Source: Amycolatopsis sp. WAC 01376
GTDB lineage: Bacteria > Actinomycetota > Actinomycetes > Mycobacteriales > Pseudonocardiaceae
Length of the DNA: 64,000 nucleotides
Reading direction: 5' to 3'
Assembly: GCF_003947415.1 (NCBI RefSeq)
Contig: NZ_QHKL01000004.1
Span: forward strand, 558,001-622,000
This document shows, one piece after another, positions 10,373 through 52,553 of the stretch. The notes below the pieces were generated by a model that saw only the letters and a program-made list of their open reading frames with translations, ran no database searches and was not told the origin of the DNA. The stretch's first letter is position 1. Every line of letters begins with the position of its first letter. The position numbers and the translations under genes are program-made.

Positions 10373-10377
10373 ACCCT

Positions 10378-10412
10378 CGTCTTCCCCCGGCTCGCCGAGC
10401 CGGGGGAAGACG
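10378..10412 (+). terminator. Rho-independent-type hairpin
   Basis: A perfect 16-base stem (CGTCTTCCCCCGGCTC and complement) with a 3-base loop begins five bases after the stop codon at 10372. Confidence 0.85.
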
Positions 10413-10416
10413 CGTC

Positions 10417-10448
10417 TTGACCTCCAGCGCACTGGAGGTCGCAAGCTG
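10417..10448 (+). promoter_or_regulatory. MerR-type operator within a long-spacer promoter
   Basis: TTGACC (10417-10422) is overlapped by the perfect inverted repeat GACCTCCAG-CGCA-CTGGAGGTC (10419-10440). A -10-like AAGCTG follows 20 bases after the -35. A repeat in an over-long 19-20 base spacer is the hallmark of MerR-family activated promoters such as those of SoxR and CueR. The ATG of the next gene lies about 7 bases after the -10, suggesting a leaderless transcript. No MerR gene is in the window. Confidence 0.65.
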
Positions 10449-10454
10449 TCGATC

Positions 10455-12576: not shown

Positions 12577-12597
12577 CCGCGGGAGTGTAGAGGGCGA

Positions 12598-13443: not shown

Positions 13444-13629
13444 CGCCGTCACCTCTCTGTTTGTGCGTGAACCCGCGGCCGCGATCGACGTCGGCGGGGC
13501 GCGGCATGGCATAGCACGTCATGTCGAGCGAACAAGGCGCCCCGCCACCGCGATAGCGGGGCCTTCGGCCGGGCGGGTTCACGCGTATGGTCATTTCTCC
13601 GGACCTGCCGCAGCTCCGCCTACCGTCAC

Positions 13630-14157: not shown

Positions 14158-14215
14158 CGGGTGCCGCCTTTCGCCGTGTCGTTCGTGCTGGACACAGCTT
14201 CGGCGGACCGGCCCG

Positions 14216-17242: not shown

Positions 17243-17243
17243 G

Positions 17244-18287
17244 TCAGAACTCCTCATCGGCGGAAGCGGCCGCCGCCCGTTCGGCGAGCGTCCTGGCCTC
17301 CGGCGGGCGTGCCCGCACGAGCGCGACCACTTCCGCCCGGTCTTCCGCCGTGGTCCCGGCGACGCCCTCGTCCGCCACGCCGACGACGAGGGTGATCTGT
17401 CCACTTTGGACGCGGGCGGCGAGCCTGGCCGCGGTCTCGTCCAGGTCGGCTGTGCCGGTGAACCGCCCTGCGCCCAAGGACAACGGCACTTCCGCGAACG
17501 GCTCACCCTCGTGGGTCGCGAACGCGGTGATCGCCGCGTCGGCGAACGCGCCCGCGACAACGACTTCGAGCCGGGTGGCGGCCGCGGCGGCGACGATCCG
17601 CCACGTCACCGTGTCCTCCGCGGCGTCCAGGATGCCCGGCGGCACTCGTGCCCAGTCGACGCTCGCGCGTCCGCTCGCGAGTACGCCTTCGCCGGGTGCG
17701 ACCGGATCGGTGCCCGCTGCCAGCGCGTACGCACGTTGGCCAGGGGCCGCCATCTCAAGGCGCGCCGCCGCTTCGGCGCGCACGACGTCGTCCTGGTCGT
17801 CGAACCAGGCCGCGAGGCGAGTGCACAATCCCCGGACTTCGCCGGCGACCGGCGCCGCGGCGGCCAGCAGGGCGCCGCCCGCGATCGCCGGGTCGAACAG
17901 TTCGGCCGGGGAGGCTTCGAAATCGTCGAGGAGACCTTCGGCCAGGTCTTCCACGTCCACCGTCGCGACCGCCGTTTCGAGGTCCAGCAACGCCGGGTCC
18001 AGCGAAGGGATTCCGAGCGACGCGCTGGCGGGCCACCAGCGGCGCAGCCAGAGCAGCAAAGCGAGTCTGCCCAATTCCGGCCTGGCGGCGAGGTCCGCTT
18101 GGCCTTGGCCGAGCGCGATGAGACTGGCTTCCGCGCCCGCGAGCCGGGTCAGCCACGGTTCGGCGGCCGCGGCGTCGGTGAGTTCGATGTGCATCGTGGT
18201 CGTCCGGCCGTCGAGGAGATCCGCGAGGGCGAAGCGGATGAGGCCGCCGTCGGCCGCGAGTACGGGTGTGTGCACCGGATGCGTCAC
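17244..18287 (-). CDS. Unknown protein, second gene of CHAT operon
   Basis: 347 residues from GTG 18287, whose bases overlap the upstream stop (GTGA). The sequence is alanine- and leucine-rich with acidic patches. The first 40 residues (GGLIRFALADLLDGRTTTMHIEL) look like a beta-rich module; the middle is helical (LLLWLRRWWPASASLG) and a region about 200-310 alternates strands. No recognisable catalytic motif. It ends in DEEF, two bases before the CHAT start. Tight coupling argues that it works with the CHAT protein, as a regulator, adaptor or substrate; which of these cannot be told. Confidence 0.72.
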   Translation of the reverse strand: MTHPVHTPVLAADGGLIRFALADLLDGRTTTMHIELTDAAAAEPWLTRLAGAEASLIALGQGQADLAARPELGRLALLLWLRRWWPASASLGIPSLDPALLDLETAVATVDVEDLAEGLLDDFEASPAELFDPAIAGGALLAAAAPVAGEVRGLCTRLAAWFDDQDDVVRAEAAARLEMAAPGQRAYALAAGTDPVAPGEGVLASGRASVDWARVPPGILDAAEDTVTWRIVAAAAATRLEVVVAGAFADAAITAFATHEGEPFAEVPLSLGAGRFTGTADLDETAARLAARVQSGQITLVVGVADEGVAGTTAEDRAEVVALVRARPPEARTLAERAAAASADEEF

Positions 18288-19597
18288 GACACGGCCTCCA
18301 GATCCGGCAGGCGGGCCATGAGCGAGCGGCGCACCTTCGTCCGCAGATCCAGCGAGGTCGAACGGACCACGCCGGTGACGAGGTCGCGTACGTCCGCGGC
18401 GTCGGCGGGCAGGTCGCCGCGGACGTCGAAGCCGTGCAGCCGGACCCACAGCCTGCTGAGGAACTGCTTGGCGAACTCGCGAAGGTCGCGCAGGAGTTCG
18501 GCGTCGGGCCGCGGGGTGAGCGGCGTGGCTCCGGCCAGAGCTCGGCGGGCGTGCAGGACGTAACCCTCCCGCGCGACCTGGGCATTGAGCTGCCGCGCGA
18601 ATTCGGGGACACCCGCGGGCGCCGCGCCGTCGAGCGGTCGCAACGCGGGCGCGAGCACGACACCGAGCGCGAAGCAGGCGGCCAACGCGGGCAGGCCGAG
18701 CCCGAATCCGGCGGCGACCCTGGCGAGTTCGTCGTCGACGAGGTCGGCGACGGGGGCCCGCTCGTCCGGGGGAAGACGGCGCAAGGTCGCGCGCACCCGC
18801 CGTTCGACACTGCGTTCGAGGAGTTCGGCCCCGGTTTCGTCGCGCCGGTTCAGCGGTGGGACGGCGGTGCGTTCCCCGCGTTGCAGCCCGAGGTCCGGAA
18901 CCGGGAGCCCGGAGATCTCTCGAACGGCTTCGCTCAGGGCGCGGGCCCCTCCCGGCCGTCGCAGGCCGAGCCCGAGGGCGTGACCGGTGGCCGAATCGGC
19001 GAGGGCACGCCATGCGGTGTCGGACAGCTCGTCGACGAACGTCCGGAGCGCGGAAATGTCCGGTGATACGGCGGGTTCGGTGTTCCAGCGGCGATGCAGC
19101 TCCGCGGTCAGATCCGCCGAATGCCGCGGATCCGCGAGATATGCGGTGAGCTGATCGACGCCCGCCACACCGGCGTCGCCGTGCAGATCCCGCAACGCCG
19201 CCGCGGCCGTCGCCGCCGCGTCCGGACCGGGCGTACCGAAACCCGTCGCCAGCTCATAGGCGAGCGGGAAGCAGACGTCCTGGACGTTGCCGGCCGTGAT
19301 GCGCAGGGCACGGCGCTGGCGTTTGAGGTGGGTGAACCACGCGGCCGTCGCGCGCAACCTGTCCGCGTCGGCCAGCAGCAGTTCCGCCACCTCGGCCGCC
19401 GCGACCGGGTCCAGCACGGGACGCCCCAGCCGGGGCCGCGCCGCCGTGCGGATCACCAGCGGGTCGATGATCTTCTTGATCGTCCGGGTCAGCGGTCCGC
19501 CGTCGGCCGACGACAGGACCTCGACACCGTCGATGCGCTCCCAGGCTTCAGTGAGGACGGCCGAACGCAGCCGGGGCCCGCCCGATCCCGTCGTCAC
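18284..19597 (-). CDS. Unknown protein, first gene of CHAT operon
   Basis: 437 residues from GTG 19597, which follows GGGGAGGG; in-frame GTG 19621 and ATG 19612 are alternatives. Largely helical and alanine-rich, with a possible hydrophobic pair of helices near residues 300-325 (GLGLPALAACFALGVVLAPAL) that might be a membrane-associating hairpin. No known motif seen. The last bases overlap the next start. As the first gene of the cassette it may be a sensor or an effector that the CHAT protease cleaves; that is inference from gene order alone. Confidence 0.72.
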   Translation of the reverse strand: MTTGSGGPRLRSAVLTEAWERIDGVEVLSSADGGPLTRTIKKIIDPLVIRTAARPRLGRPVLDPVAAAEVAELLLADADRLRATAAWFTHLKRQRRALRITAGNVQDVCFPLAYELATGFGTPGPDAAATAAAALRDLHGDAGVAGVDQLTAYLADPRHSADLTAELHRRWNTEPAVSPDISALRTFVDELSDTAWRALADSATGHALGLGLRRPGGARALSEAVREISGLPVPDLGLQRGERTAVPPLNRRDETGAELLERSVERRVRATLRRLPPDERAPVADLVDDELARVAAGFGLGLPALAACFALGVVLAPALRPLDGAAPAGVPEFARQLNAQVAREGYVLHARRALAGATPLTPRPDAELLRDLREFAKQFLSRLWVRLHGFDVRGDLPADAADVRDLVTGVVRSTSLDLRTKVRRSLMARLPDLEAVS

Positions 19598-36956: not shown

Positions 36957-37310
36957 GTGACCAACGAGCATCCGTACCCGCCGGCCTTCCGCAGCGGCGA
37001 CCTGGTTTCCGTGTCCGGACGGCTCGGCGTGACCGAGACGGGAGAGCCGGCACCCGGCGGCTTCGACGCCGAATGCCCGCAGGCCTTCGCCAACCTCGAC
37101 GTCGCGCTGCGTTCGGTGGGCGCGACCAGGGCCGACGTGGTGAAGGTCGTCGTGTACCTGACCGACATCACCGACCGCGACGGCCTCAACCGTGTCTACG
37201 AAGAGTTCTTCGCCGAGCCCCGGCCGGCTCGAACCTGTGTCGGCGTCGCGTCCCTGCCCTACGGCGGCAGCGTCGAAGTCGAGGCCCTCGCCCGAGTACG
37301 CGATGTCTGA
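36957..37310 (+). CDS. RidA-family enamine/imine deaminase
   Basis: 117 residues from GTG 36957. The family pattern is visible: PYPPAFRSGDLVSVSGRLG, the helix QAFANLDVALRSVGATRADVVKVVVYLTDI, and the C-terminal PARTCVGVASLPYGGSVEVEALA, in which the Arg that anchors the substrate carboxylate (RTCV) and the Glu near the end are conserved. RidA proteins hydrolyse 2-aminoacrylate-like intermediates released by PLP dehydratases to the keto acid and ammonia. The operon position before a dehydratase fits exactly. Its stop overlaps the next start. Confidence 0.9.
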   Translation: MTNEHPYPPAFRSGDLVSVSGRLGVTETGEPAPGGFDAECPQAFANLDVALRSVGATRADVVKVVVYLTDITDRDGLNRVYEEFFAEPRPARTCVGVASLPYGGSVEVEALARVRDV

Positions 37311-37947
37311 GCAGGACGCGATCCTCGACGCGCTCGCCCCGGTCGCCGACGGCATCGCGGCGACGCTCGGCTCGTTCTGCGAGGTCGTGGTGCACGACTT
37401 CCGCCGTCCGGAGCGATCGGTGGTCGCGATCGCGGGCTCGGTCACCGGCCGCGGTGTTGGCGGCTCGATGAGCGAGATCGGCATGGGCCTGCTCGCCCGC
37501 GGCGACGACGCCGAAGACCAGCTGAACTACGTCACCCGGACGGCGTCCGGGAAGCTGGTGAAGTCTTCGACCATGCTGTTGCGCGACAGCGGCGGCTCGG
37601 TGTTCGGCGCGCTGTGCGTGAACCTCGACGTCACCGCGTTGGGCCAGCTCAAGACCCTGGTCGGTGAACTCGCCGATGTCGGTGCCGCCACCGAAACGCC
37701 GACCACCACCTTCGGCGACGACGTCGACGCGGTGGTGGACGCGATCGTCGACGAACACCAGCTCCGGCTGAACAAACCCTGGGCCGCGCTCAGCCGCGAA
37801 GAACGGCTCGACCTGTTCCGCAGCCTCCACGCGCGCGGTGTCTTCGCCGTGCGGCGGGCGGTGCCCCAGGTCGCCGCCCGCATCGGGATCTCCCGTGCCT
37901 CCGCTTACAACTATCTCGCCGAAATCCGTGATCAAGGAGCATCATGA
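37303..37947 (+). CDS. YheO-like PAS / HTH transcriptional regulator
   Basis: 214 residues. The N-terminal 110 residues match the YheO-like PAS module (ILDALAPVADGIAATLGSFCEVVVHDF, typical of the family), and the C-terminal part holds a DNA-binding helix-turn-helix (RRAVPQVAARIGISRASAYNYLAEIR). Such regulators often control amino-acid catabolic genes beside them. It starts inside the RidA gene's last codons and its stop overlaps the dehydratase ATG, so the three are one coupled operon. Confidence 0.87.
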   Translation: MSEQDAILDALAPVADGIAATLGSFCEVVVHDFRRPERSVVAIAGSVTGRGVGGSMSEIGMGLLARGDDAEDQLNYVTRTASGKLVKSSTMLLRDSGGSVFGALCVNLDVTALGQLKTLVGELADVGAATETPTTTFGDDVDAVVDAIVDEHQLRLNKPWAALSREERLDLFRSLHARGVFAVRRAVPQVAARIGISRASAYNYLAEIRDQGAS

Positions 37948-38906
37948 CCGCCCCCGTGACCATCGACGACATCCGTGACGCCGCCGCCCGCCTGGCCGGT
38001 GTCGCGCACCGGACCCCGGTCGTGCGTTCCCGGACCCTCGACGACCTCGTCGGCGCCGAGGTCTTCATCAAGTGCGAGAACCTCCAGCGTGTCGGTGCCT
38101 TCAAGTTCCGTGGCGCGTACAACGCCGCGTCCCGGCTCTCGCCGGAGCAGCTGGCCAAGGGCATCGCCGCCTACTCCTCTGGCAACCACGCCCAGGCCGT
38201 CGCGCTCGCCGCTCGGGAACTCGGGAGCAGCGCGGTCATCCTGATCCCGGAGGACACCCCGCAGTCCAAAAAGGACGCCACCGCGGGCTACGGCGCCGAG
38301 ATCGTCACCTACGACCGGTACACCGGCGACCGCGTCGCGATCGGTGAAGCGCTGGCGGCCGAACGCGGCCTCGCGCTCATCCCGCCGTACGAACACCCGC
38401 ACGTCATCGCCGGACAGGGCACGGCGGCGCTGGAACTGCTGGAGGACACCGATTCCCTCGACACCCTCGTCGTCCCCGTCGGCGGTGGCGGCCTGATCGC
38501 GGGCAGCTCGACCGCCGCGAAGGCCGTGCGGCCCGGCATCCGGGTCGTCGGCGTCGAACCCGCCGCGGGCGACGACACCAAACGTTCGCTGGACGCCGGG
38601 GAGCGCGTGTCGATCCCGGTGCCGCGGACCATCGCCGACGGCCAGGCCGCCGAGATCCCCGGCGAACTGACCTTCTCGATCAACCGGAAGCTCGTCGACG
38701 ACATCGCGCTGGTCACCGACGACGAGGTCCGCGACGCCATGCGGTTCGCCTTCGAACGGCTGAAGCTCGTCATCGAGCCGAGCGGGGCCACCGGTCTCGC
38801 GGCGCTGCTCAGCGGGCGGATTCCCGTTTCCGGCCGGGTCGGGGTGATCATCAGCGGCGGGAACGTCAGCCCGGAACGCTTCGCCGAACTGATCGCGTCC
38901 GAGTAA
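37944..38906 (+). CDS. PLP-dependent threonine/serine (hydroxyaspartate) dehydratase
   Basis: 320 residues of fold-type II PLP enzymes. The Schiff-base lysine is in GAFKFRGAYN, the phosphate and ring loop in SSGNHAQA, and the glycine loop in PVGGGGLIAGSS. It lacks the C-terminal ACT-like regulatory domain of biosynthetic IlvA, so it is of the catabolic or serine-racemase / threo-3-hydroxyaspartate ammonia-lyase branch. The reaction removes water and then ammonia from a beta-hydroxy amino acid to give a 2-oxo acid; RidA, two genes upstream, would speed the last step. The exact amino acid is not determined. Confidence 0.9.
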   Translation: MTAPVTIDDIRDAAARLAGVAHRTPVVRSRTLDDLVGAEVFIKCENLQRVGAFKFRGAYNAASRLSPEQLAKGIAAYSSGNHAQAVALAARELGSSAVILIPEDTPQSKKDATAGYGAEIVTYDRYTGDRVAIGEALAAERGLALIPPYEHPHVIAGQGTAALELLEDTDSLDTLVVPVGGGGLIAGSSTAAKAVRPGIRVVGVEPAAGDDTKRSLDAGERVSIPVPRTIADGQAAEIPGELTFSINRKLVDDIALVTDDEVRDAMRFAFERLKLVIEPSGATGLAALLSGRIPVSGRVGVIISGGNVSPERFAELIASE

Positions 38907-38942: not shown

Positions 38943-39920
38943 TCAGAGGCCGAGCCCGCCCGCGAGTACCGGCCAGGAGTTGCGAAGAGCGCGCTGCCAG
39001 TACGGCCAGCTGTGCGTGCCGTCGCCGTAGTAGTCGACGGTCGCCGGGATTCCCTTGGCCTTCAACCGATCCGTGAAGCTCACCGAGGAGGCCAGTGCCT
39101 GGGATTCGAAGATGTCGGACTGGCCCGGCGGATCGAGCGGGCCGGTCTTGCCGTTCCCGCACGAGAGGTAGAGCGCCGTACCGCGCAGGCCGTCGACGTG
39201 GTCGAACGGGTTGTTCGCCGTCCAGAGCGGCCGCATTCCCCAGCTGTCGCCCCAGAGTTCGAGGTAGTTGAAGACCCCCGCGCGAGCGAGGATCCCCTGG
39301 ATGAACAGCGGAGCTCCCTGGTTGAGCGTGTTCGGCACGCCGCTGTAGGACGCCGCCGCGGCGAACATCCCCTTGTGCTTGTAGGAGTACGCGAGCGCGC
39401 CGTATCCGCCGATCGACAGTCCGGCGATCACCCGGCGGGTGCCCGCGCGGTAACCGCGTTCGACGATCTGCCGCACTTCGAGGGTGTGGAAGGTGTCCCA
39501 GTCCGGCGTGCTCTTGAGCCCGAAGTTCCACCACTTCGTGTACATCCCGGCGGGCCCGCCGGTCGGCATGACCACGAGGGCGTCCTTGTCCGCGGTGAAC
39601 GCCTTGACGTCGGTGAACTGGTCCCAAGAGCGGTAGTCCACCGGTTCGCAGCAGCCGTGCAGCAAGTACAGCGTCGGCCAGGTGCGCGTGGGTTGCACGG
39701 CCCAGCCGGTGGGGACGAGCAGGCGGACCATGCCGGTGGTGCCGAGCGACGGCGAACTGATCTTGAGATCGACGGTCCGCGCGTCCAGCCACGTCTCCTC
39801 GACGACCTTCGCGCCGTTGTCGGCGGTGACCGGCGTTGGCGCCGCGCTCGCGGGGATCGAGCTTCCGAGCAGGGCGGCCAAGCACAGCGCCAGCGCACCC
39901 CACCGCCACGTTCGCTTCAT
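38943..39920 (-). CDS. Antigen-85/mycolyltransferase-like secreted esterase
   Basis: 325 residues from ATG 39920, preceded by GAGGAG. Signal peptide (MKRTWRWGALALCLAALLG, cleaved after ASA). The alpha/beta-hydrolase follows the antigen 85 plan: YLLHGCC, VVMPTGG, nucleophile Ser169 in AGLSIGGYGAL, LYLSCGNG and His303 in GDGTHSWPYWQRAL, the last being very close to the GTHSWEYW of mycobacterial Ag85. Ag85 proteins transfer mycolic acids onto trehalose and arabinogalactan. Its start is 13 bases after the carboxylase gene, so it is the last gene of the FAAL-PKS-carboxylase operon and probably transfers the product outside the cell. Substrate inferred. Confidence 0.87.
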   Translation of the reverse strand: MKRTWRWGALALCLAALLGSSIPASAAPTPVTADNGAKVVEETWLDARTVDLKISSPSLGTTGMVRLLVPTGWAVQPTRTWPTLYLLHGCCEPVDYRSWDQFTDVKAFTADKDALVVMPTGGPAGMYTKWWNFGLKSTPDWDTFHTLEVRQIVERGYRAGTRRVIAGLSIGGYGALAYSYKHKGMFAAAASYSGVPNTLNQGAPLFIQGILARAGVFNYLELWGDSWGMRPLWTANNPFDHVDGLRGTALYLSCGNGKTGPLDPPGQSDIFESQALASSVSFTDRLKAKGIPATVDYYGDGTHSWPYWQRALRNSWPVLAGGLGL

Positions 39921-39933
39921 CGTTTCTCCTCGC

Positions 39934-41517
39934 TCACAACGGGATGTTTCCGTGTTTCCTGGCCGGGGTGGTCTGCCGTTTCGTCCGGAGCGTGTGCAGG
40001 GCCCGCGCCACTCGCAGCCGGGTCTGCGACGGCGTGATGACCTGGTCGACGTAGCCGCGTTCCGCTGCCAGGTACGGATTCGAATGCCGTTCGCGGTACG
40101 CCTCGGTGAGCCGCCTTCGTTCGGCGGAGCGCTGTTCCGGCGGCAGCGCGGCCAGTTCGTGCCGGTGCAGCACCCGCACCGCGCCCTCGGCACCCATCAC
40201 CGCGATCTCCGCGGTGGGCCAGGCCAGATTGACGTCCGCGCCGAGATGCTTCGACCCCATGACCGCGTAGCCGCCGCCGTAGGCCTTGCGGATCACCACG
40301 GTCACCATCGGCACGGTCGCCTCGGCGTAGGCGTAGATCAGTTTGGCGCCGCGGCGGATGATCCCGTTCCGTTCCTGCGCCTCGCCGGGAAGGTATCCGG
40401 GGACGTCGGCGAGGGTGAGGATCGGGATGCCGAAGGCGTCGCAGAACCGCACGAACCGCGCGGCCTTCTCCGAGGCGTCGATGTCGATCACGCCGGCCTG
40501 ATGCCGCGGCTGGTTGGCCACGACACCGACGGTGCGGCCCCGCACCCGGCCGAACGCGCAGATCATGTTCGGCGCGAAACCGCTGTGCACCTCCATGAAG
40601 TCGCCGTCGTCGACGAGCCGGACGATCACCTCGGTCATGTCGTAGACCTGGTTGAGCGAATCTGGCACCAGCCGGTCGAGTTCGAGGTCGGTGGCGGTGA
40701 GTTCGGGATCGGTTTCGTCGGCGTACTCCGGGACGGCGTCGAGGTTGTTGGACGGCAGGTAGCCGAGCAGCGTCTGCACCCAGTCGATCGCGTCCTGTTC
40801 GCCGGCCGCCCGGTGGTGGACGTTCCCGGAGACCTCGCTGTTCACCGCGGCGCCGCCGAGCTGCTGGGCGGTGACCCGTTCGCCGCTGACGGCGTGCACG
40901 ACATCCGGCCCGGTGACGAACATGTGCGCGGTCTCGTCGACCATCACGGTGAAGTCGGTGATCGCCGGCGAGTAGACCGCCCCGCCGGCGCAGGGCCCCA
41001 TGATCAGCGAGATCTGCGGGATGACGCCGGAAGCCAGCGCGTTACGCCTGCCGAGCTCGGCGTAATAGGCCAGCGAGACGACGCCTTCCTGGATCCGGGC
41101 ACCGCCGGAGTCGTTGATCCCGACGACGGGGCAGCCCAGCGTCATCGCCAGATCCATCACCTTGAGGACCTTCTCGCCGAAGACTTCGCCCATGCTGCCG
41201 CCGAAGACCGTGAAGTCCTGGGAGAACACACAGATCTGCCTGCCGTCGACGGTGCCGTGCCCGGTCACCACGCCGTCGCCGTACGGCCGGTTGGCGTCCA
41301 TCCCGAACTCGGTGCACCGGTGCCGGGCGAACTGGTCGAGTTCGACGAAGGAACCCGGGTCCAGCAACAGCTCGACGCGTTCGCGCGCGGTCAGCTTGCC
41401 CTTGGCGTGCTGCCGGTCGACCGCCCGCTTCTCGGCGATCCGGACGGCTTCGTCCTGGCGGGCGGCGAGATCGGCGATCCGGAACGCCGTGGTCGGCGCG
41501 AACGGGGCATCGGTCAT
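39934..41517 (-). CDS. Acyl-CoA carboxylase beta subunit (AccD4/PccB-like)
   Basis: 527 residues. Both carboxyltransferase halves are present: the N half with [32 protein letters not shown] and [12 protein letters not shown] (oxyanion glycines), and the C half with [32 protein letters not shown] and [12 protein letters not shown]. The enzyme transfers carbon dioxide from biotin to the alpha carbon of an acyl-CoA. In mycobacteria, AccD4 makes the long-chain carboxyacyl-CoA extender for Pks13. The ATG overlaps the synthase stop (ATGA). The alpha (biotin) subunit is not in the window. Confidence 0.9.
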
Positions 41518-44500
41518 GGTCTCGCCGCCCTCGATGCCCCGAGCCGGGCGGAGAGTTCGGCGGCGACCACTTCGACGTGCGGCGGGTCGATCATCGACAG
41601 GTGATCGCCGGGCACCCGCACCACTTCCAGATCCGTGCAGAAGACGTCCCAGCCGAGGGCGTCGTCGGTACGCAGATACCGCGGATCGAGGGTGGTGGTC
41701 AGCGGATGCGGCTCCTGCGCACGCACCAGGAGCACCGGCCCCGCATAGGGTTCCGGCTGGTAGCGTTCCGCGACCCGGGCGTCCACATAGGACTCGTACT
41801 GATGCCGTAGCACGCCCTGCCCCATCTCCGGGACCTGGGCGGCCAGTCTGCTGATCACCAGCCGGATCTGCTCGTCGTCGCCGAGCTGGACGAGGTCCTC
41901 GCGCGGGATGTCCAGCGGGACACCGTAGGTCCGTTCGACGTGCTCGGCGAACCGGTCGAACCGGTCCAGCAGGATCTCGTCCGGCGCCTTCCCCTGCGCG
42001 GGCAGAGGCAGAATGCTGTCGATCATGAACACGAGATCGACCCGCTCCCCCGCCGCGGTCAGCCGCCGGGCGGTCTCGTAGGCGAGGCAGCCGCCGAACG
42101 ACCAGCCGCCCAGCCGATACGGGCCCTGCGGCTGGATCTCCCGGATCAGCTCGAGATAGCACTCGGCCTTGTCCTCGACGGTGTCCTCTTCGTCGATCCG
42201 TTCGAGCCCGTAGACGGGCCTGCCCCCCGGCAAGAGGCGGACGAGTCCCTCGTACACGCTCGTCGGGCCACCCGCCGGATGGAACAGGAACACCGGATCC
42301 GCGCCGCCTTCGCGCAGCGGCCGGACCGGGCAACCCCCGCGTCCCTCGATCCGGTCACGCAGCAGATCGGCCATCGCGGCGATCGTCGGCGTGGCGAAGA
42401 GCAGGTCGACGTCCGGCACCGCGCCGAGCTGCCCGGCGAACACCGCGCGCAGTCGCTTCGCCGCCTCATGGTCGCCTCCCGCGGCGAAGAAGTCGTCGTG
42501 GACGCCGGGTTCCGCCCCGTCGAGTTCCGCTTGCCAGTGCCGGGCGATCCAGCGTTCGGCCGGATCACGCGGTCCGACGGTCACGGTCGGCCGGGCGGGC
42601 CGCGGGCCTCCCTCGCCGAAGCCTGCCTGTTCGGCGAGGTGATCGGCGAGTTCGCCGAGGCTGGCGCCGCGCAACAGCAACGGAATCGGCAGCGGCAGGC
42701 CGAAATCGCGTTCCACCACGCCCTTCGCGCGCATGGCGGTGAGGGAGTCCAGGCCGAGCCTGGTGAGCGAGACGTGCCTGTCGATCTCGTCCGCGGCGAG
42801 GCCGAGCATCCCGGCGACGAGACCGGCGAGATAGTCGGCCAGCATCTCGCGGGCCGCTTCCGGCAGGACCGCCCGCAGCGCGTCCAATCCGTCCCATGTG
42901 GACGGTACGGTATCCGGTTCTTCCTTCGGTACCAGCATCTCGAAGAACGGCCGTCCGGCCAGACGCGGGAACAGGGCGAGTACCGTCCCGGCGTCGACGC
43001 GGGCGATGCCGGTCGATCCGCGATCACGGTTCAGCACGGCGTCCATCGCCGCCAGCGCCTCGTCGGTGCCGAGCGGTTCGAGCACCGGGTTGCGGCTCCC
43101 GACGGCCGCTCCCGCCTCGCCCCAGGCTCCCCAGCGGATGGTCGCCGCCGGTAACCCGCCTGCCCGGCGCCACTCGACGAGCGCGTCCACCCAGGCGTTC
43201 GCGGTCGCGTAGGCGGCCTGTCCCGGCGATCCGAACAACGCCGCCGCCGACGAGTACGTCAGCCACCAGTCGAGTTCGTGTCCGGCCGTGGCCTCGTGCA
43301 ATCGCCACGCTCCCAGCGCTTTCGCGCGCCAGACAGCCTCGACGGCATCCTCGTCGACGGCGATGGCGGCACCGTCGGCCAGCACACCGGCCGCGTGCAG
43401 CACGCCACGCAACGGCATACCGCCTTCGGTGGCGGCCGCGACCAGCGCTTCGGCCGTTCCCGGCTCGGCGATGTCGCCCGTCACCACGCGGACGTCCGCG
43501 TCCAGTGCACGCAGGTCCGCCAAGACGGCGGGGTTCGCGCCGCGACGCCCGGAAAGGATGAGCCTGGTCGCGCCGCGCCCGGCCAGCCAGTCCGCCGCGA
43601 CCAGTCCGAGGCCGCCGAGACCACCGGTGATCACGTAGGCGCCGTCGCGGACAACGGTTTCGTGACCGGCTTCCCCGAGGTCCGGGCGGGCCAGCAGCCG
43701 CGTGTACCGGACGCCCTCACGCCAGGCGATCTCGTCGTCCGGCGCGTCCGCGTGGAGCTCCGCCGCCAGCCTGGCGACCCACAGCTGTGCCGGATCCGGC
43801 TCGGCATCGAAGTCGACCTGGCTCGCTCGCAGCTCGGGGTGTTCGAAGGCGAGGACACGAACCAGCCCGCGAAGCCAGGCCTGCCCGGGATCACCGCGTT
43901 CGCCGGGCTCGATGGCCGAGGCACCGGCGCTGACCAGCCACAATCGTGGTGCGGACGCCGCTTCGGCCAGCTCGGCGACGACGCCGGAGAGCGTTGCGAC
44001 ACTCCGCGCGGCCCGCATCGGGTCGGGCGCGACCGAAGTGGCCACCCGCGCGAGGACGCCCGTCACTTCGCGGGAACGCAGGATCTCCGCCAGCGCGGTC
44101 CGATCCCCGAGCGGAACCGACACCAGTTCGTCCCCGGCGAGTCGTTCACGCAACGCCGTCGGCCACGGCGACCCGTCCTCCAGGACGACCCAGCTGTGCG
44201 GACCCGGTTTCGCCGCCGGCGGCTCGGCCTGCCGCCAGACCGTCTCGAACAGCAGATCCGCCATCGGCACCGGCAGTGCCGAACGCTGGAACCGGCGGCA
44301 GTAGACGTCGCGGAACTCGACCAGGACGACGTCGTCGGCGTCGACCAGCTGGACGCCGCCGACCAGGCCGTCACCGGCCGGGTCGAGTGAATCGAGTACG
44401 GCGTCGACCCGGACACCGCGCCGAGGATCTCCAGCGAGGACGATTTCGCCAAGGGTCAGCGGCAGAAAGACACCGTCGGCCTCACGCAGCGCGTCCCCGG

Positions 44501-47500
44501 CGGCCGCGGCCAGCGCGTGCAGGCAGGCGTCGGCGATCACCGGATGCAGGACGTACGCGGGATGGCCGGCGGGCAGCGTGATCGACGCCGAGGCCCGGCC
44601 GGGCGCCGCCAGAACCTCTCGCAGGCCACGGAAAGCGGGACCGTAGCTCTGCCCGGCCGCGGCCAGCACCTGGTAGAGGTCGACCGGCCGGGCGTCGCCA
44701 CCGACCGGGCCGAACGGCACGACCGCGGTGTTCCCGTCGCGGACGCGGGCGGTCGCGTGCCGGACCCAGCCGCCGTCCGCGGCCCGCGCGTAGACGTCCA
44801 CTTCGGACGGTCCGGAACCCGTGCTCAGACTGGTCGTCACCTCGGTGTGCGCGACGAGCGGGAGCACACGGTGCAGTTCGAGACCGCTGATGCGCAGGTG
44901 CCCACCCGGCCGCAGGACGGTCTTCACCGCCGCGAGCGCCAGTTCCAGGAAACCGGCGGCGGGGAACAGCGGGACCCCCATCGCCGCGTGGTCGGCCAGC
45001 CACGGCTGCACCGCTGTCCCGACGTCCGCGTGCCACAGATGTCCACCGCCGGTCGGCTGTTCGATGTGGACACCCAGCAACGGATGCGCGCCACCGGATC
45101 CGGGCCGGGAGGCAGGCCGTCGCGGCCAGAACCGTTCGTGCCGCCAGCGTGGTCCGGGCAGCTCGACCGGAAGCGGACGGGGGCCGCCGCCGTCGAGCAC
45201 CACCGGCAGTCCGAGGGCGTGGAGCCGGGCGAGCGAGGTCAGGAACGCCGTCCGCTCGTCGATCCGGCGGCTCGCCGACGGCAGCGCGAGCGCGCCGGTG
45301 CTCTGCTCGATCGCGGCCAGCGCGACCGGATGCGGCGAGATCTCGACGAACACGCCGTACCCGTCCGCGGTCGCCGCCGCCAGCGCCTGGCTGAACCGCA
45401 CCGGACGGCGCAGATTCGCCGCCCAGTAGTCGATGTCGAACACCGGTGACCACTGTGGATCGTCGAGAACACTGCTGTAACAGGGGATCTCAGCCGGTCG
45501 CGGGGAAAGCCCGTCGAGCTCGGCGCGGAACCGGCCGAGGACGGCGTCGACGGCTTCCGAATGGCCGGCACCTCCGACCGGCAACCGCTTCGCCAGCCTG
45601 CCGAGGCCCTCCACATGCGACACCAGGGCCTCGACCTGTTCGGCGCCGCCACTGACGGTGCACTGGACCGGCGAGGCGTAAACCGCGACGGTGATCCCGG
45701 GGAACTCCGCTTCCAGCTCGGCGAGCTCGGCCGGGGACAGTTCGACCACCGCCATCGCGCCGTCGCCGGACGCGTCGACCTCGGCGAGCAGCCGGGCGCG
45801 CGTGGCCATCACGCGCAGGCCGTCGGTGACGTCCAGCGCTCCCGCGACGACGGCGGCCGCGACCTCGCCCATCGAATGTCCGGCCACCGCGGCCGGGACG
45901 ACGCCGTGCGCACGCCAGAGCGCGGCGAGGGCGAGGTGCATGCCGAACAACGCGAGCTGGGTCGCGGCAAGGTCCGGCAGGTCGCACTCGCCGGAGAAGA
46001 CCGCGCGCAAGGAAAACCCCGCTTCGGCCAGGAACACCGGGTCGAGCGCCTCCACCTCGGCACGGAACGCGGGTTCGGAGCGCAGCAGTAGGCAGCCCAT
46101 GCCGGGCCACTGGGAGCCGTAGCCGGAGAAGACGAACACGACGTCGGGAATGGGACCGGCCTCGCCGGCGACGACGTCCCCGCCGTCGCGTCCGGCGGCC
46201 AGTTCCCGCAGCGCGGCGGCGGCCCGGTCGCGTTCCCCGGCCACCACCGCGCCGCGGATCGGCAGATGGTCCCGGCTCCTGGCCAGCGTCGCGGCGACCG
46301 CGGCGAGCGATACCGCGTGATGGGCGGGGTCTTCGAGCCAGTCGGCCAGATCGGCGGCACGCGCCCGAAGTACCTCGGGCGATCGGGCCGACAGCGCCAG
46401 CACCCGCGGGCCCTCGGCGTCCGTCCCGCGAGCGGGGAACGACGCGGCGGGCCACTCTTCGAGGACGACGTGGGCGTTGGTGCCGCCGAACCCGAACGCC
46501 GAGACCCCGGCCCGCACGACGTCGGAGTACCGCGGCCAGTCCGTCCCGGCGCCGACCATCCGGAGGCCGAGACCGGCGAAATCGATATGCGGGCTGGGTG
46601 CGCGATGATGCGGGGTCGGCGGCAGCCGTCGGTGGACCATCGCGAGGACCACCTTGATGAGCCCGGCCATCCCCGCCGCGCCTTCGAGATGCCCCAGATT
46701 TCCCTTCACCGACCCGATCAGGAGTGGTCGGCCGGATTCGCGCCCTGCTCCGAGCACCTCGCCGAGCGCGACGGCCTCGATCGGATCCCCCACCGCCGTC
46801 CCGGTCCCGTGTGCCTCCACGTAGTCCACAGAGGACGGTTCGACCCCCGCCGCCGCGTACGCGTCACGCAGCAGGTCGGCCTGCGCGCCGGGGCTGGGCG
46901 CGACGAGTCCGTTCGACCGGCCGTCGGAGTTGACCGCGCTGCCGCGGATCACGGCGAGCACCCGGTCCCCCGCGCGGCGAGCGGCCTTCAGCGGCCTGAG
47001 CACGATCACGCCGCAGCCTTCACCGCGGGCGATGCCGTCGGCGTCGGCGTCGAACGGTTTGCAATGCCCGTCCGGGGCCAGCACCCCGGCACGCCGGAAG
47101 GACGCGGTGACGGCGGGCGAGAGCAGGAGGTTCACTCCGGCGACGAGCGCCGTCCCGCATTCACCGCGGCGCAGGCTCTGCACCGCCTGATGCACCGCCA
47201 CCAGCGAAGACGAGCACGCGGTGTCGAGGGTGAGGCTGGGCCCGCGCAGGTCGAACAGGTACGAAAGCCGGTTGGCGGCGATGCTCGTCGCGGCCCCGGT
47301 GGCGGACCAGACGTCGACGGTGGCGGGATCGGCCATCGTCAGGTGGCCGTACTCGCCGGCCGAGAGCCCGACGAACACACCGGTCCGGGTTCCGCGCAAG
47401 GTGGACGGCGGGATCCCGGCGTGTTCCAGCGCCGCCCAGGCGACTTCGAGCAGCATCCGCTGCTGGGGATCCATCGCTTCGGCCTCGCCCGGGGTGATGT

Positions 47501-47963
47501 CGAAGAACGCGGCGTCGAAACCGGCGATGTCGCCGAGGAATCCGCCACGGCCGAAGTCCTCCTCGAACGCGTCCCAGCGGCCTTCGGGGACGTCGCGGAT
47601 GCCGTCACGGCCGTCGTCCAGGAGCCGCCAATACCGCTCCGGCGAGTCCGCGCCGCCCGGCAGACGGCAGCCGACACCGACGATCGCGATCGGCTCTCCC
47701 TCGCGGGCTTCACCGCTCACGGTCGCGGAGTCCTCCACTGTGGACAGACGCGCGGCGAGAGCGTCGATCGTCGGGTACTGCCACACCAATGTCGGCGGTA
47801 GCGGGCGGCCGAGGTACCGGCCCAGCTCCGCCGCCAGCTCCATCGACTCCCGGGAGGAAAGGCCGCTCTCGTGCAGCGGGCGGTCCGGGTCGACCCGAGC
47901 CGCGGGCAGCCCGGTCCGCTCCGCCACCCGCGCGACGAGCCAGGCGCGGATCTCCGCGGTCAC
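41514..47963 (-). CDS. Pks13-like type I polyketide synthase with added DH and KR
   Basis: 2149 residues from GTG 47963, overlapping the ligase stop. Domains: N-terminal carrier (Ser37 in ESGLSSRES); ketosynthase about 90-515 (Cys250 in [22 protein letters not shown]); acyltransferase about 605-900 (Ser697 in GHSMGEV; the specificity motif is VGGAGHS at 796-802, neither HAFH nor YASH); dehydratase about 960-1235 (His992 in [10 protein letters not shown], Asp1145 in DACLH); ketoreductase about 1440-1620 ([13 protein letters not shown]); carrier (Ser1740 in GLDSLTAM); a degenerate carrier-like segment (GGDHEAA near 1832); thioesterase about 1860-2149 (Ser1955 in GGWSFGG, PGDHLSM). It should condense a ligase-loaded fatty acyl chain with a carboxyacyl extender. 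Confidence 0.9.
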
Positions 47964-49720
47964 CCGAGCCGCCGCGCGGTCAGCGAACCGTCCAGAAAGG
48001 ACTTCCGGCAGAGGGCGCGGCTGATCTTGCCGCTGGAGGTACGCGGAACCTCGCCGGGGGCGAGGAAGACGACGTCGTGCGGCCGCAGACCGTGCGCGGC
48101 CGAGACCGCCCTCCGGATCTCCGCGGTCGCCACGGCGATGTCGACGTCAGTGCCCTTGGCCCGTTCCGCCACCACGACCGCCGCTTCGCCGCCTTCGCGC
48201 TCGATCGCGAACGCCGCGGCGGAATGCGGCCGGACCGCGGGATGCGTCTCCACGGTCTGTTCGACGTCCTGCGGATAGTGGTTGCGGCCGTCGACGATGA
48301 CGAGATCCTTGAGCCTGCCGGTCATGAACAGCTCGCCCTCGTAACGCACGCCGAGGTCCCCGGTCGCGAGCCAGCCCGCACCGGACTCCGGATCGATCGG
48401 CGGCAGGCCGAAGACACCGTCGGACGCGGCGGGCCGTCCCCAGTAGCCCACACCGACGTTCGGGCCGTTGACCTGGATCTCCCCCACCCGCCCAGGTTCG
48501 ACGAGCGCGCCGGCGACCAGGTCGGCGATGCGGACCCGTTGCCCCGCCGGAAATCCGCAGGAGACGAGCGTGGTGGACACCACGCCGGGGAGGGCGGGCG
48601 TCGCCAGCCCGGCGGCGAGCCGCTCGCGGTCGAAGGCGACCTGGCGCGGGGCCTTGCCCGCTTCGGTGACGGAGACGAGCACGGTGGCCTCGGCCAGCCC
48701 GTAGGAGGAGCGATGCACCTCGGGCCGCAGCCCGCAGTCCTCGAAAGCGCCATGGAACTTCGCGATGGTCGCGGGCAGGACCGGCTCGCTACCGTTGATC
48801 AACGAGACGACCCGGCTCAGTTCGAGGTAACTCTTCTCGTCCTCGGTCACCCGGGAAGCGCTGTAGGCGTAGGCGAAATTGGGTGCCGCGCTGATCGCGC
48901 CGGGACTGGCGGAGAGGGCGCGCAACCAGCGTGACGGCCGTTCGAGGAACGCGAGCGGATCCATCAGGACCGACGCCGCGCCCGCCGCCATCGGCGCGCC
49001 GATCCCGAGGATCAGGCCCATGTCGTGGAACAGCGGAAGCCAGCTGACGGTGGACGTCGTCCCCGTTTCGATCGAGTAGGCGTCGCACGCCTGGCGGGCG
49101 TTGGTGAGCACGTTGCGGTGGGTCAGCATCACACCCGCCGGCGTCCGCGTGGAACCGGACGTGTACTGCAGGTACGCCAGTCCGTCTGGTTCCGGTCGCG
49201 GCCAGGAGCGATCACCGGCCGCGACCGGAGTCGGGGTGTCGACGGCGAGCACGGCGGGGCGCTCGATATCCGTCGAGGAAAGGAAACCGGCGGCGGTGTC
49301 GAGCCCGTCGGCGGTGGTGAGCACGACCCGCGGCGCGCAGTCGGCGGCGACGGCGGCCAGCCTGCCCGCATGCCCCGGGAGGTCCGGGGCGAACAGCGGG
49401 ACCGCCACCAGCCCGGCGCGGATCGCGCCGAGGAAGGCGACGACGTAGTCGACGGACTGCCGCGCCAGGATCGCCGCCCGGTCCCCCGGGGCGGTGAAAG
49501 ACGTCAGGCGGGTGGCGAGGACGTCGACCCGGTCGTCGAGTTCGCGCCAGGACACGGTGACCGCCCGGCCGTCCGCTCCGGCGCGATGGTCGAGATAGGT
49601 CACGGCGACCTCGTCGCCGAGCCGCCACGCCCAGTACCTCAGCAGTGTCGCGAACGACTCGCCGCCGCGCGCGTCGTCCGGCTCGCAGGCGGCGACGACC
49701 GATTCCGAAATGGTTTCCAT
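47960..49720 (-). CDS. Fatty acyl-AMP ligase, FadD32-like
   Basis: 586 residues from ATG 49720 (GAGGGG upstream). It has the adenylation motifs YLQYTSGSTRTPAGV, SWLPLFHDMGLILG and SSYGLAEATV, and the C-terminal GWLATGDLGVRYEGELFMTGRLKDLVIVDGRNHYPQDVE, the signature of fatty acyl-AMP ligases. FAALs make acyl-adenylates and pass them straight to a carrier protein rather than to CoA. FadD32 does this for Pks13, whose N-terminal carrier accepts the meromycolate. The GTGA overlap with the synthase makes the same hand-off very likely here. It is the first gene of the operon. Confidence 0.92.
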   Translation of the reverse strand: METISESVVAACEPDDARGGESFATLLRYWAWRLGDEVAVTYLDHRAGADGRAVTVSWRELDDRVDVLATRLTSFTAPGDRAAILARQSVDYVVAFLGAIRAGLVAVPLFAPDLPGHAGRLAAVAADCAPRVVLTTADGLDTAAGFLSSTDIERPAVLAVDTPTPVAAGDRSWPRPEPDGLAYLQYTSGSTRTPAGVMLTHRNVLTNARQACDAYSIETGTTSTVSWLPLFHDMGLILGIGAPMAAGAASVLMDPLAFLERPSRWLRALSASPGAISAAPNFAYAYSASRVTEDEKSYLELSRVVSLINGSEPVLPATIAKFHGAFEDCGLRPEVHRSSYGLAEATVLVSVTEAGKAPRQVAFDRERLAAGLATPALPGVVSTTLVSCGFPAGQRVRIADLVAGALVEPGRVGEIQVNGPNVGVGYWGRPAASDGVFGLPPIDPESGAGWLATGDLGVRYEGELFMTGRLKDLVIVDGRNHYPQDVEQTVETHPAVRPHSAAAFAIEREGGEAAVVVAERAKGTDVDIAVATAEIRRAVSAAHGLRPHDVVFLAPGEVPRTSSGKISRALCRKSFLDGSLTARRLG

Positions 49721-49889
49721 GGCCCCTCGTTTGACGACGTGAGCAGGAGCGGGTGAATTCGGAACGGCACCGTTGCCGAAAGCGGATTCCATTCCGGAGA
49801 CCGTTCTTTATCTGCCCGGAACTGTATGGATACCGCGGGAAGAGTGTCAATGAAAGGACGGTGAAACGCCGACGGCGATGCCGACGTGC

Positions 49890-51296
49890 TCACCGGGAAG
49901 TGAGAAAGGGGGCACCCGGCTTGTCACTTCGGGACGAACTTCGGCCCGGCCGGGGGTTCAGCAACCTGAGCGCGAGGAGCGCACCGGCCAGTTCCAGCCC
50001 CGCCGCCGCCAGCAGGCCCGCCGTGTAACCACTCGCCAGCGCGGACGCGGCGCCCTCGTCGAGCCGGGCCGTGCGGACCACCGCCAGCACGGCCCCGATC
50101 AGCGCGACGCCCAGCGCGCTCGACAGTTCACGCGACGCGGTGAGCAGCCCGGACACGGTGCCCGCGTGCCGCTCCGCCACGATTTCCAGCGCGTACGAGG
50201 TCAACGGTGTGGTCAGAGCCGATCCGGCACCGATCAGCACCAACCCGGGGATCCGCGGAAGGATTTCCGGCACGTGGTTGACCGCCGCGATCGCCAGCAG
50301 TCCCGCGGCCACCGTCGCCAGCCCAGCCGCGACAGTCCGATGTGGACCGAATCGCGGTACGGCCCAAGGCACCAGCGGCGTCGCGGCGACGACCGCCACC
50401 GCCACCACTACCAGCGGCAATCCGGCTTGCAACGGCCCTAGCCCGAGGGATTCCTGGTGCAGCAACGGCGTGAAGAAGAAGACGCCCGAAACGCCCAATC
50501 CCCACAGCAACTGCACGGTGAGCGCGCCGGCGAAGACCCGCTGACCGGTCAGCTCCACCGGTACCAGCCGCACGCGCGCGCGTCTTTCCCTGAACACGAA
50601 CCAGATCGCGAAGCCCGTGCCCGCGACGCCGAACACCGCGGACAGCAGCGCTCCACCCTCGCCCAACTCCACCACGGCGGCGGTGATCAGGACCATCCCC
50701 GCGGTCACCACCAGCATGGACAGCACGGCAGGCCGCCCGGCCGCCGGATCGCGATCCGCGAGGGCGACCGTACGCGACAGCAGCAGCATCGCCGCCACGA
50801 ACGGGAGATTGACGAAGAAGATCCAGCCCCAGCCCCAATATTCGCTCAGCACACCGCCGAGCGTCGGACCGAGCGCGAGCGCGGCAGCGAGGCAGGCGGT
50901 CCACACCGTCGCCCCGACCGCTCGCCCTCGCGCGTCGAGATTGGTGCGCAGCAGGCTGAGCAGGGCCGGGACCAGGAACGCCGCGGCGGCGCCCTGCAGT
51001 ACCCGCGCGGAGATGACGAGCCACGCCGTCGTGGCCAGCCCGCCGGCCGCCGCGCCGACCCCGAACGCGATCAGCCCGGCCCGCAGCGTCGCGGCCTGAC
51101 CCCAGCGGTCCACCACCGTGCCCGCCACCGGGAGCAGTCCGGCGAAGGGGAGCATGTAGCCGATGCTCACCCATTGCAGCGTGGGCAGCTCGAGGCCGAG
51201 GTCCCGGGCGATCGACGGCGCGCCCGCCGCGACGATCGTGTTGTCGAGGGTGGTGACGAACGCCCCTAACGCGATCATGAGGAGCGTCGGGCGCAT
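49890..51296 (-). CDS. MFS efflux transporter, DHA2 (14-span) type
   Basis: 468 residues from ATG 51296, six bases after GAGGAGG; a longer open frame upstream reads through the IS element and is not coding. Begins MRPTLLMIALGAFVTTLDNTIVAAG, the LDxTIVxxA first-helix signature of DHA2 drug:proton antiporters, and has about 14 hydrophobic spans with VVDRWGQ in the first loop. It lies 170 bases upstream of the acyl-AMP ligase on the same strand and may export the operon's product or be an unrelated resistance gene. An IS30 element ends about 40 bases before the start and may have replaced its promoter. Confidence 0.85.
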   Translation of the reverse strand: MRPTLLMIALGAFVTTLDNTIVAAGAPSIARDLGLELPTLQWVSIGYMLPFAGLLPVAGTVVDRWGQAATLRAGLIAFGVGAAAGGLATTAWLVISARVLQGAAAAFLVPALLSLLRTNLDARGRAVGATVWTACLAAALALGPTLGGVLSEYWGWGWIFFVNLPFVAAMLLLSRTVALADRDPAAGRPAVLSMLVVTAGMVLITAAVVELGEGGALLSAVFGVAGTGFAIWFVFRERRARVRLVPVELTGQRVFAGALTVQLLWGLGVSGVFFFTPLLHQESLGLGPLQAGLPLVVVAVAVVAATPLVPWAVPRFGPHRTVAAGLATVAAGLLAIAAVNHVPEILPRIPGLVLIGAGSALTTPLTSYALEIVAERHAGTVSGLLTASRELSSALGVALIGAVLAVVRTARLDEGAASALASGYTAGLLAAAGLELAGALLALRLLNPRPGRSSSRSDKPGAPFLTSR

Positions 51297-51339: not shown

Positions 51340-52553
51340 TCGTCGCAACATGCTCCTGTTAGGACAGTAGCTTGTTGAGTCGTTCGGCTGGGGTGTCCCA
51401 GTCGAGGGTTTTGCGGGGGCGGCCGTTGAGTTCGGCGGCCACCCTCGCAAGGTCTTCCCGGCTGTGCGTGGCGAGGTTGGCGCCTTTGGGGAAGTACTGG
51501 CGGAGCAGGCCGTTGGTGTTCTCGTTCGAGCCTCGTTGCCAGGGTGAGTGCGGGTCGCAGAAGTAGATGTCGAGGTCGGTGGCCAGGGTGATCTGTGCGT
51601 GCCTGGCCATTTCGGTGCCCTGGTCCCAGGCCAGTGACCGGCGCAGCTGTGTGGGCAGGGTCTTGATGGTGGCGATCATCTGGTCGGCGACGGTGGCGGC
51701 GTCTTTCCCGCCGGGCAGGTGCAGCAGCAGGCAGAACCGGGTCGTGCGTTCGACCAGGGTCCCGATCGCCGAACGGTTGTCCTTGCCCATGATCAAATCG
51801 CCTTCCCAATGTCCCGGGACCGCCCGGTCGGCGGCCTCGGCGGGCCGTTCGGAGATCGGGACCATCCCGGCGATCTTGCCCTGGCGGGCCCGGCGCCCAT
51901 CGGGCATCCGCTGCGGCCGGCGGATCGCCCGCCCGGTCCGCAAGCACCGCGCCAGCTCACGCCGCAGCGCGCCCCGGCCTTGGACGTAGATGGCCTGGTA
52001 GATCGTCTCGTGACTCACGTGCATCCTCGGCTGGTCGGGAAAGTCCCGGACCAGCCTGGCAGCGACCTGCTCCGGCGACCACCACGCCCGCAGATCCGCC
52101 TGCACTCTGTCCCGTAACACCAGGTCAACGGCCAGCTTCGCCGGTTTCGGCCGTTTCGCCCGCTCCTCGGCCGCGTGCTGGGCCGAGCTGGCCCGATAGC
52201 CCTGCCCGGTGCTGTTGCGGTCCAGTTCCCGCCCGATCGTGGAGCGATCCCGCCCCAACCGGCGCGCGATCTCCGCTTTCGGCACCTGCTGGGCCCACAG
52301 GATCATGATCTCCTCCCGCTCGCCCAGCGAGAGATAGCGGCCCGACCCAGACTTCGGCGCATTACTGATCACCCCGCCAGCCTCCTCGAACAACCGTCTC
52401 CCACTGGCCCGCGACACGCCCACGGCCACCGCCGCCCGCTCCACCGGCAACCCAGCCCGCACCCGATCCCAGAACGCCACCCGCACATCCCGCGGCAACC
52501 AACGACGACGTTTCCCAGCCACCACAACACCTCCACATCAGATGTTGCGACGA
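51340..52553 (-). mobile_element. IS30-family insertion sequence
   Basis: About 1.2 kb bounded by the inverted repeats TCGTCGCAACAT (51340-51351) and ATGTTGCGACGA (52542-52553), enclosing one intact transposase gene. Target duplications are not clear, so the ends may be off by a few bases. It stands between the efflux gene and a cluster of dispersed repeats. Confidence 0.88.
51359..52525 (-). CDS. IS30-family transposase
   Basis: 388 residues from GTG 52525. Two N-terminal helix-turn-helix regions (VAVGVSRASGRRLFEEAGG and VPKAEIARRLGRDRSTIGREL) precede the DDE core: GHWEGDLIMGKDN (first Asp), SLAWDQGTEM (second Asp) and GSNENTNGLLRQYFPKG (Glu). No frameshift or stop, so it should be active. 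IS30 elements move through a circular intermediate and prefer palindrome-like targets, which fits insertion beside the hairpin-rich strip at 52.6-53.1 kb. Confidence 0.93.
   Translation of the reverse strand: MVAGKRRRWLPRDVRVAFWDRVRAGLPVERAAVAVGVSRASGRRLFEEAGGVISNAPKSGSGRYLSLGEREEIMILWAQQVPKAEIARRLGRDRSTIGRELDRNSTGQGYRASSAQHAAEERAKRPKPAKLAVDLVLRDRVQADLRAWWSPEQVAARLVRDFPDQPRMHVSHETIYQAIYVQGRGALRRELARCLRTGRAIRRPQRMPDGRRARQGKIAGMVPISERPAEAADRAVPGHWEGDLIMGKDNRSAIGTLVERTTRFCLLLHLPGGKDAATVADQMIATIKTLPTQLRRSLAWDQGTEMARHAQITLATDLDIYFCDPHSPWQRGSNENTNGLLRQYFPKGANLATHSREDLARVAAELNGRPRKTLDWDTPAERLNKLLS

Follow-up and report, generated by a model that had tools for sequence, protein, structure and literature searches.

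The 64,000-nucleotide stretch of Amycolatopsis sp. WAC 01376 analyzed here (contig NZ_QHKL01000004.1, positions 558,001 to 622,000; hereafter the window) carries an operon of four minus-strand genes (38943-49792, from open reading frames and start calls), which encode a fatty acyl-AMP ligase (FAAL), a single-module polyketide synthase (PKS), an acyl-CoA carboxylase beta subunit (AccD) and a secreted esterase with a predicted mycoloyltransferase fold. Our analysis places this operon, which is conserved and for the most part undescribed, among the relatives of the mycolate condensation locus; reduction and dehydration are integral to it. An earlier note on this DNA had reported four same-strand genes that overlap or lie at most 13 bases apart, and both coordinates and spacing agree with it: the FAAL/PKS and PKS/AccD junctions are 4-base overlaps, and 13 bases separate AccD from the esterase gene. 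The genes, the regions of the PKS and two upstream features are as follows.

47960..49792, minus strand: FAAL, 610 amino acids (alternative ATG start at 49720)
41514..47963, minus strand: single-module PKS, 2149 amino acids, with N-terminal acyl carrier protein (ACP), ketosynthase (KS), acyltransferase (AT), dehydratase (DH), ketoreductase (KR), ACP, degenerate second carrier (GGDH) and thioesterase (TE)
47745..47942, minus strand: N-terminal ACP (PKS residues 8-73), with a GLSSR motif resembling that of Pks13
46434..47708, minus strand: KS region (Pfam domains, KS tree)
45264..46163, minus strand: AT region, motif GAGHS
44274..45098, minus strand: DH region, DACLH present
43104..43658, minus strand: KR region, GGLGGLG and S/Y motif
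41517..42308, minus strand: Pks13-type TE, with conserved Ser, Asp and His
39934..41517, minus strand: AccD of the AccD4/MccB type, 527 amino acids
38943..39920, minus strand: secreted esterase, mycoloyltransferase fold, 325 amino acids, N terminus signal-peptide-like
49821..49850, minus strand: promoter-like TTGACA-18-TACAGT before the FAAL gene (one found, against a mean of 0.3 in shuffles)
49890..51296, minus strand: major facilitator superfamily (MFS) transporter, DHA2-like, directly upstream of FAAL, candidate exporter

The condensing core and its partner enzymes

There is good support for relating the KS, the AT and AccD to Pks13 and AccD4. Phylogeny of the KS had been set beforehand as a check on the Pks13-like character of the PKS, and in the resulting tree (42 rows) the window PKS, the PKSs of related gene sets (hereafter cassettes) and true Pks13 form one clade with support of 100/99, apart from modular PKSs. 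The same grouping of cassette PKSs and Pks13 is recovered in the AT tree (41 rows; 99/95) and in joined KS+AT trees of 38 rows (100/99) and 44 rows, the latter containing a 28-row clade (100/99) that leaves PpsA/B-like, MAS-like and modular controls outside. Rows of these trees are a chosen subset of the fetched loci, with near-identical rows omitted, and the PpsA/B-like controls are presumptive, being named by their position after a FadD26-like FAAL. An ordinary modular PKS is ruled out by the KS, AT and joined trees alike; the PpsA-like PKS, closest in architecture and used as a control, also falls outside the cassette/Pks13 clade with its KS and AT.

Catalytic motifs follow the same pattern. 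The N-terminal ACP motif is common to the window PKS and Pks13, and the AT motif reads GAGH in the window and in most cassettes, Pks13 having GA(G/S)H; variants are VAGH in a second cassette of this genome, GAAH in family f13 (genome families are given here as f numbers) and GAVH in one Streptomyces cassette, and the ATs of modular PKSs of the same genome (L125, L126) read YASH or HAFH. The TE gives a match of 6e-76 to the Pks13 model, and the Ser, Asp and His are invariant in all ten aligned TEs. Within this genome the TE part of that model scores 255 bits for the window PKS, 245 for the second cassette and 82 for the next protein.

The earlier note had taken the PKS as the counterpart of Pks13, overlooking the DH and KR. 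Pks13 is the best NCBIfam model for the protein, but at 1318 bits against a cut-off of 2100, and the Pfam domain order differs from the ACP-KS-AT-ACP-TE of Pks13 by the presence of these two domains. For both reasons the PKS is not a Pks13 equivalent, and it should therefore reduce and dehydrate its own condensation product. The PKS is a PpsA-like module with a TE by architecture and Pks13-like by core sequence. The KR motifs are intact, and the DH His and Asp are kept in all 28 rows of the Amycolatopsis type (the window plus 27 named loci). Both residues are lost in seven of seven Streptomyces rows, and the His in two of two rows of family f2. This lineage-specific loss leads us to predict different end products: an enoyl product in Amycolatopsis and a hydroxy acid in Streptomyces. 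The Streptomyces cassettes, with KR kept and DH residues lost, are predicted to yield an alpha-alkyl beta-hydroxy acid, which is the mycolate motif itself.

In the 44-row tree, a branch of length 0.86 places Pks13 among the cassettes with DH and KR. None of three other placements was rejected by approximately unbiased (AU) tests: Pks13 as the sister of all cassette PKSs (p 0.516 and 0.286), all DH-KR cassettes as a single clade (p 0.306), and Pks13 joined to the second, DH/KR-free type (p 0.096); a tree uniting the DH-KR cassettes with PpsA to the exclusion of Pks13 was rejected (p 0.00135). With the sister placement unrejected, either order of DH/KR gain and loss is compatible with these tests. 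One MAS-like KR falls among the cassette KRs in the KR tree and the PpsA/B KRs lie far away, so the KS may have a history different from that of the reducing domains. As a tentative and rather doubtful proposal, actinobacteria that lack mycolates could carry a self-reducing "mycolate synthase" cassette whose surface lipid is both produced and installed by it, and the mycolate system of Corynebacteriales could be a specialized offshoot of this older cassette, Pks13 having lost DH and KR, with reduction passed to a separate enzyme, and the esterase having gained a trehalose-binding loop.

AccD groups with the AccD4 proteins of Pks13 loci (97/96), apart from PccB/AccD5-type subunits, in a 29-row tree for which the program warned of long branches elsewhere and which does not include MccB among its rows. 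The nearest solved structure is 5inf, which we take to be MccB of the stambomycin pathway. The acceptance of longer chains by MccB has been attributed to Gly161 and to Ala at the site of Asp421 in PccB, PccB having Phe and Asp at these positions (PMC5187497). The window AccD has Gly and Ala at the two specificity sites, as do AccD4 and two cassette AccDs (f2 and f13), and the genome's own PccB-type copy has Phe and Asp. A propionyl-CoA carboxylase is ruled out by the AccD4 clade together with the Gly/Ala residues.

The upstream ligase belongs with the FAALs, its best NCBIfam and PDB matches all being fatty acyl-AMP ligases: it scores 538 of 922 bits on PRK12476 (fatty acyl-AMP ligase) and 498 of 975 on the FadD32 model, both below cut-off, and its best PDB match is FadD32 (E 1.2e-123). 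The esterase finds protein PS1 (E 8e-46) and then antigen 85 as its best PDB sequence matches. Its structure model, built from 27 sequences (pLDDT 91.6), is closest to C. glutamicum mycoloyltransferase A (TM 0.80); the first 28 of 50 structural matches listed are mycoloyltransferases or antigen 85, followed by ferulic acid esterases and S-formylglutathione hydrolases. A Ser-Glu-His triad is present. The GTHSWPYW motif of the window esterase also occurs in stand-alone esterases (L060, L065, L071) with no operon in the fetched stretch and is therefore not diagnostic. The most fitting name for the protein is mycoloyltransferase-fold acyltransferase or esterase, with the acceptor left unspecified.

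In Actinopolyspora xinjiangensis (L088, 8395-10873), homologues of the MFS protein and the esterase are adjacent, and the stretch fetched there contains no FAAL or PKS match; it looks as though export and transfer could exist without the rest.

Conservation and variants of the cassette

The earlier note had proposed looking for the same gene order in other mycolate-negative Pseudonocardiaceae, and within Amycolatopsis this order proved to be widely kept. A search with the esterase, from which 78 loci were kept among the best 80 of 249 matches, found its closest named relatives in Amycolatopsis within those 80. The complete order FAAL-KS-AT-DH-KR-TE-AccD-esterase lies on a single strand in 27 of the 30 loci with an Amycolatopsis title; the exceptions are a locus that starts at a contig end inside the PKS (L050), a contig of 4.7 kb on which only the esterase lies (L076) and one further locus with nothing but the esterase (L095). 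In 23 of 28 Amycolatopsis cassette loci, an MFS homologue lies ahead of the cassette, within reach of the stretches. Loci were fetched from 26 of the 36 genomes of the window's genus (its own included), and AccD stands beside the esterase in 24 of these 26. Two other loci of the genus (L226 and L228, from G007 and G014) have FAAL, a DH-KR PKS, the esterase and an MFS protein (137-144 bits), with no AccD in the stretch.

At E <= 1e-40, the TE alignment matches 84 of 298 genomes drawn from the order; 53 of them belong to family f8, 24 to f1 (the window's own family), four to f13, two to f2 and one to f9. Both genomes that exceed the Pks13 cut-off belong to f8. Thirty-one of the 84 thus lie outside f8, presumably the mycolate family; the single f9 match is a weak one, with no other cassette part in its stretch. 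Beyond the f1 genomes without a match that are considered below, 194 further genomes of the 298 lack a TE match at this threshold. At E <= 1e-60, 17 of 396 genomes drawn from the phylum match (14 from f8, the window's genome and two from f18). The open frames are mostly about 1,600-1,950 amino acids long in f8 and mostly above 2,000 elsewhere, the second-cassette type excepted. Around Pks13-type TEs outside f8, 20 further stretches were chosen from 16 genomes; 19 of these contain FAAL, 15 the esterase, nine AccD and ten an MFS protein of either type (one weak). Two f2 loci (L136 and L212, in genomes of 4.2 and 4.9 Mb) have FAAL-PKS-AccD with the DH His lost and no esterase in the fetched stretch; the genome of L136 (G036) has esterases elsewhere and no arabinosyltransferase match.

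The second cassette of the window's genome lies on another contig (L109 = G000:C28:40000-59999, at 7914-19596). It comprises a glycosyltransferase, a mycoloyltransferase-fold esterase, a DUF5642-like secreted protein, FAAL, a PKS and an MFS protein, with no AccD, and its PKS has the order ACP-KS-AT-ACP-TE without DH or KR. A glycosyltransferase also stands beside the esterase in seven of seven Streptomyces cassettes (L085, L090, L091, L093, L094, L099 and L107), and its presence in both kinds makes a glycolipid product plausible for the cassette family.

Around the operon of the window, which belongs to a genome of 9.07 Mb, a transposase-like gene (HTH_38 and integrase core, 51359-52525) lies immediately upstream of the MFS gene. 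On the plus strand (37192-38906), a gene for a YheO-like PAS/HTH regulator overlaps by 4 bases a threo-3-hydroxyaspartate ammonia-lyase-like gene (443 bits against a cut-off of 452), both converging on the operon end. No tRNA or Rfam matches were found in the 64-kb window.

A predicted branched lipid and its alternatives

Our preferred reading, to which we give somewhat better than even confidence, is that the genes of the operon assemble an alpha-branched lipid through Pks13-type chemistry and put it in place, the PKS itself carrying out the finishing steps. From the gene content we infer the following route. FAAL would activate one fatty acid and load it onto the N-terminal ACP, AccD would carboxylate a second acyl-CoA together with a biotin subunit encoded elsewhere, and the AT would put the 2-carboxyacyl unit onto the inner ACP, after which the KS would join both chains into an alpha-alkyl beta-ketoacyl chain. 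Reduction by the KR would give a mycolate-like alpha-alkyl beta-hydroxy acid, from which the Amycolatopsis DH would remove water to leave a 2-alkyl-2-enoyl chain; in the Streptomyces relatives, with their DH catalytic residues lost, the hydroxy acid should remain. The small acceptor onto which the TE may then release the chain could be a sugar; the neighboring MFS protein may export the product, and the secreted mycoloyltransferase-fold enzyme may pass the acyl group to an acceptor in the envelope. The product is probably an unfamiliar branched lipid. The earlier note had predicted an undescribed long-chain lipid in a mycolate-free wall; the genus is indeed described as mycolic-acid-free (PMC8532670), but a cluster that is very probably this one is mentioned in PMC5187497, and "long-chain" goes too far, since a carboxylase acting on C6 and longer substrates would suit the AccD residues as well.

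Several observations weigh against the envelope-lipid reading. The residues of AccD argue for a medium or long extender, without telling C6 from C16. The FAAL tree shows no grouping with FadD32, its outgroup being too distant to help. The Gly of HxxxGxxxxP is gone in nine of the 28 Amycolatopsis-type DHs, so these enzymes may differ in activity. Nor is the cassette universal in the window's family: at least 20 f1 genomes lack a Pks13-type TE, and of the 20 chosen stretches outside f8, five show no esterase and 11 no AccD. The MFS protein is of a drug-efflux kind (NCBIfam). In the esterase, the LDGLR loop found in most mycolyltransferase rows is replaced by LHGCC; this loop has a role in trehalose binding. 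Esterases from outside mycolate producers form a separate 25-row clade (100/100) that lies outside the mycolyltransferases, with the PS1 type nearest. HGCC-kind esterases also stand alone in Micromonospora and others, with no PKS in the fetched stretch, which weighs against deducing function from fold. The earlier note's antigen 85-like protein with GTHSW(x)YW thus holds for motif, fold and triad, and fails for the loop, the clade and the diagnostic value of the motif.

The drug-efflux type of the MFS protein and the stand-alone HGCC esterases would fit a diffusible secondary metabolite, an explanation that we regard as a good deal less probable but worth serious attention. Here the carboxylase would produce a medium-chain (C6-C9) alkylmalonyl-CoA, which the PKS would add once to a short fatty acid, the MFS protein would export a small lipid signal or antibiotic, and the esterase would be a hydrolase that trims or detoxifies the product. 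The presumed MccB structure 5inf, as nearest to AccD, points the same way. MccB takes medium chains, and section 11 of PMC5187497 (2016) describes a cluster that pairs a homologue of MccB with one PKS module and is "widely conserved in Amycolatopsis", treating it as a cryptic polyketide cluster. Against this explanation, the KS and AT go with Pks13 and apart from modular PKSs, AccD groups with AccD4 (in a tree that lacks MccB), and 27 of 30 Amycolatopsis loci preserve the order in full. The pairing of a Pks13-type TE with a mycoloyltransferase-fold partner would also be unusual for an antibiotic cluster.

An unlikely variant is a glycolipid pathway, in which the TE would make a sugar ester that the esterase only remodels, giving a loose outer glycolipid with nothing bound to the wall. 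The glycosyltransferase adjoining the esterase in the second cassette and in all seven Streptomyces cassettes suggests such a product, as does the release by the Pks13 TE onto polyols, with trehalose preferred (PMC9210659), but a glycosyltransferase of the cassette-type family was not found in the window. That the cassette makes true mycolic acids in a misclassified genus is very improbable: the core is akin to Pks13 and AccD4, and the genome has MMPL-family proteins and two matches to an arabinosyltransferase family otherwise seen only in C. glutamicum among 14 control genomes, but Amycolatopsis and the Pseudonocardiales are described as mycolic-acid-free (PMC8532670 and PMC6194230, respectively), the LDGLR loop is absent, and a DH with its catalytic residues in place should leave the end product without a 3-hydroxyl. 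The MMPL and arabinosyltransferase hits do not decide the question of mycolate export.

Comparison with known systems

The operon unites a condensing core (KS, AT, TE and AccD) with a mycoloyltransferase-fold partner in one conserved unit of a genus described as mycolate-free. If its product is an envelope lipid, antibiotic-producing genera would carry an undescribed surface molecule, and the cassettes would offer harmless Pks13 relatives for comparing mechanism and ancestry. In PMC6194230, antigen 85 genes are reported only from mycolate-positive species and the origin of the mycobacterial-type double envelope is called an open question. Among the titles and starts of abstracts listed for open-access papers, we found no paper linking Pks13 to the Amycolatopsis or Streptomyces cassettes.

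The esterase shares its fold and Ser-Glu-His triad with protein PS1/MytA and antigen 85 and differs by LHGCC in place of LDGLR and by its separate clade. With the MccB/SamR0482 extender-unit pair of stambomycin, the operon has in common the two specificity residues of AccD and, presumably, its best solved match (5inf). The cryptic cluster of PMC5187497, whose one PKS module is likewise conserved within Amycolatopsis, very probably corresponds to this operon; section 11 of that article names no esterase, and Pks13 and AccD4 are absent from its main text. PpsA of the phthiocerol cluster shares loading by a FAAL and the order ACP-KS-AT-DH-KR-ACP (PMC9210659), whereas the PpsA/B-like rows have their KS+AT outside the cassette/Pks13 clade, no TE match and distant KRs.

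The closest counterpart is the FadD32-Pks13-AccD4 locus of Corynebacteriales with its nearby mycolyltransferases. The earlier note had seen in the four genes the functional set of fadD32-pks13-accD4 plus a mycolyltransferase; the kinship of KS, AT and AccD and the fold of the esterase uphold this, whereas the PKS and the esterase are not equivalents. The FAAL has the FadD32 structure as its best PDB match, misses the cut-off of the FadD32 model and is not placed with FadD32 by a tree whose outgroup is too distant to help. The operon shares with that locus the gene set, the KS+AT clade, the AccD clade, the AT and N-terminal ACP motifs and the TE type, and differs from it by the DH and KR of its PKS, an esterase without LDGLR and the adjoining MFS gene.

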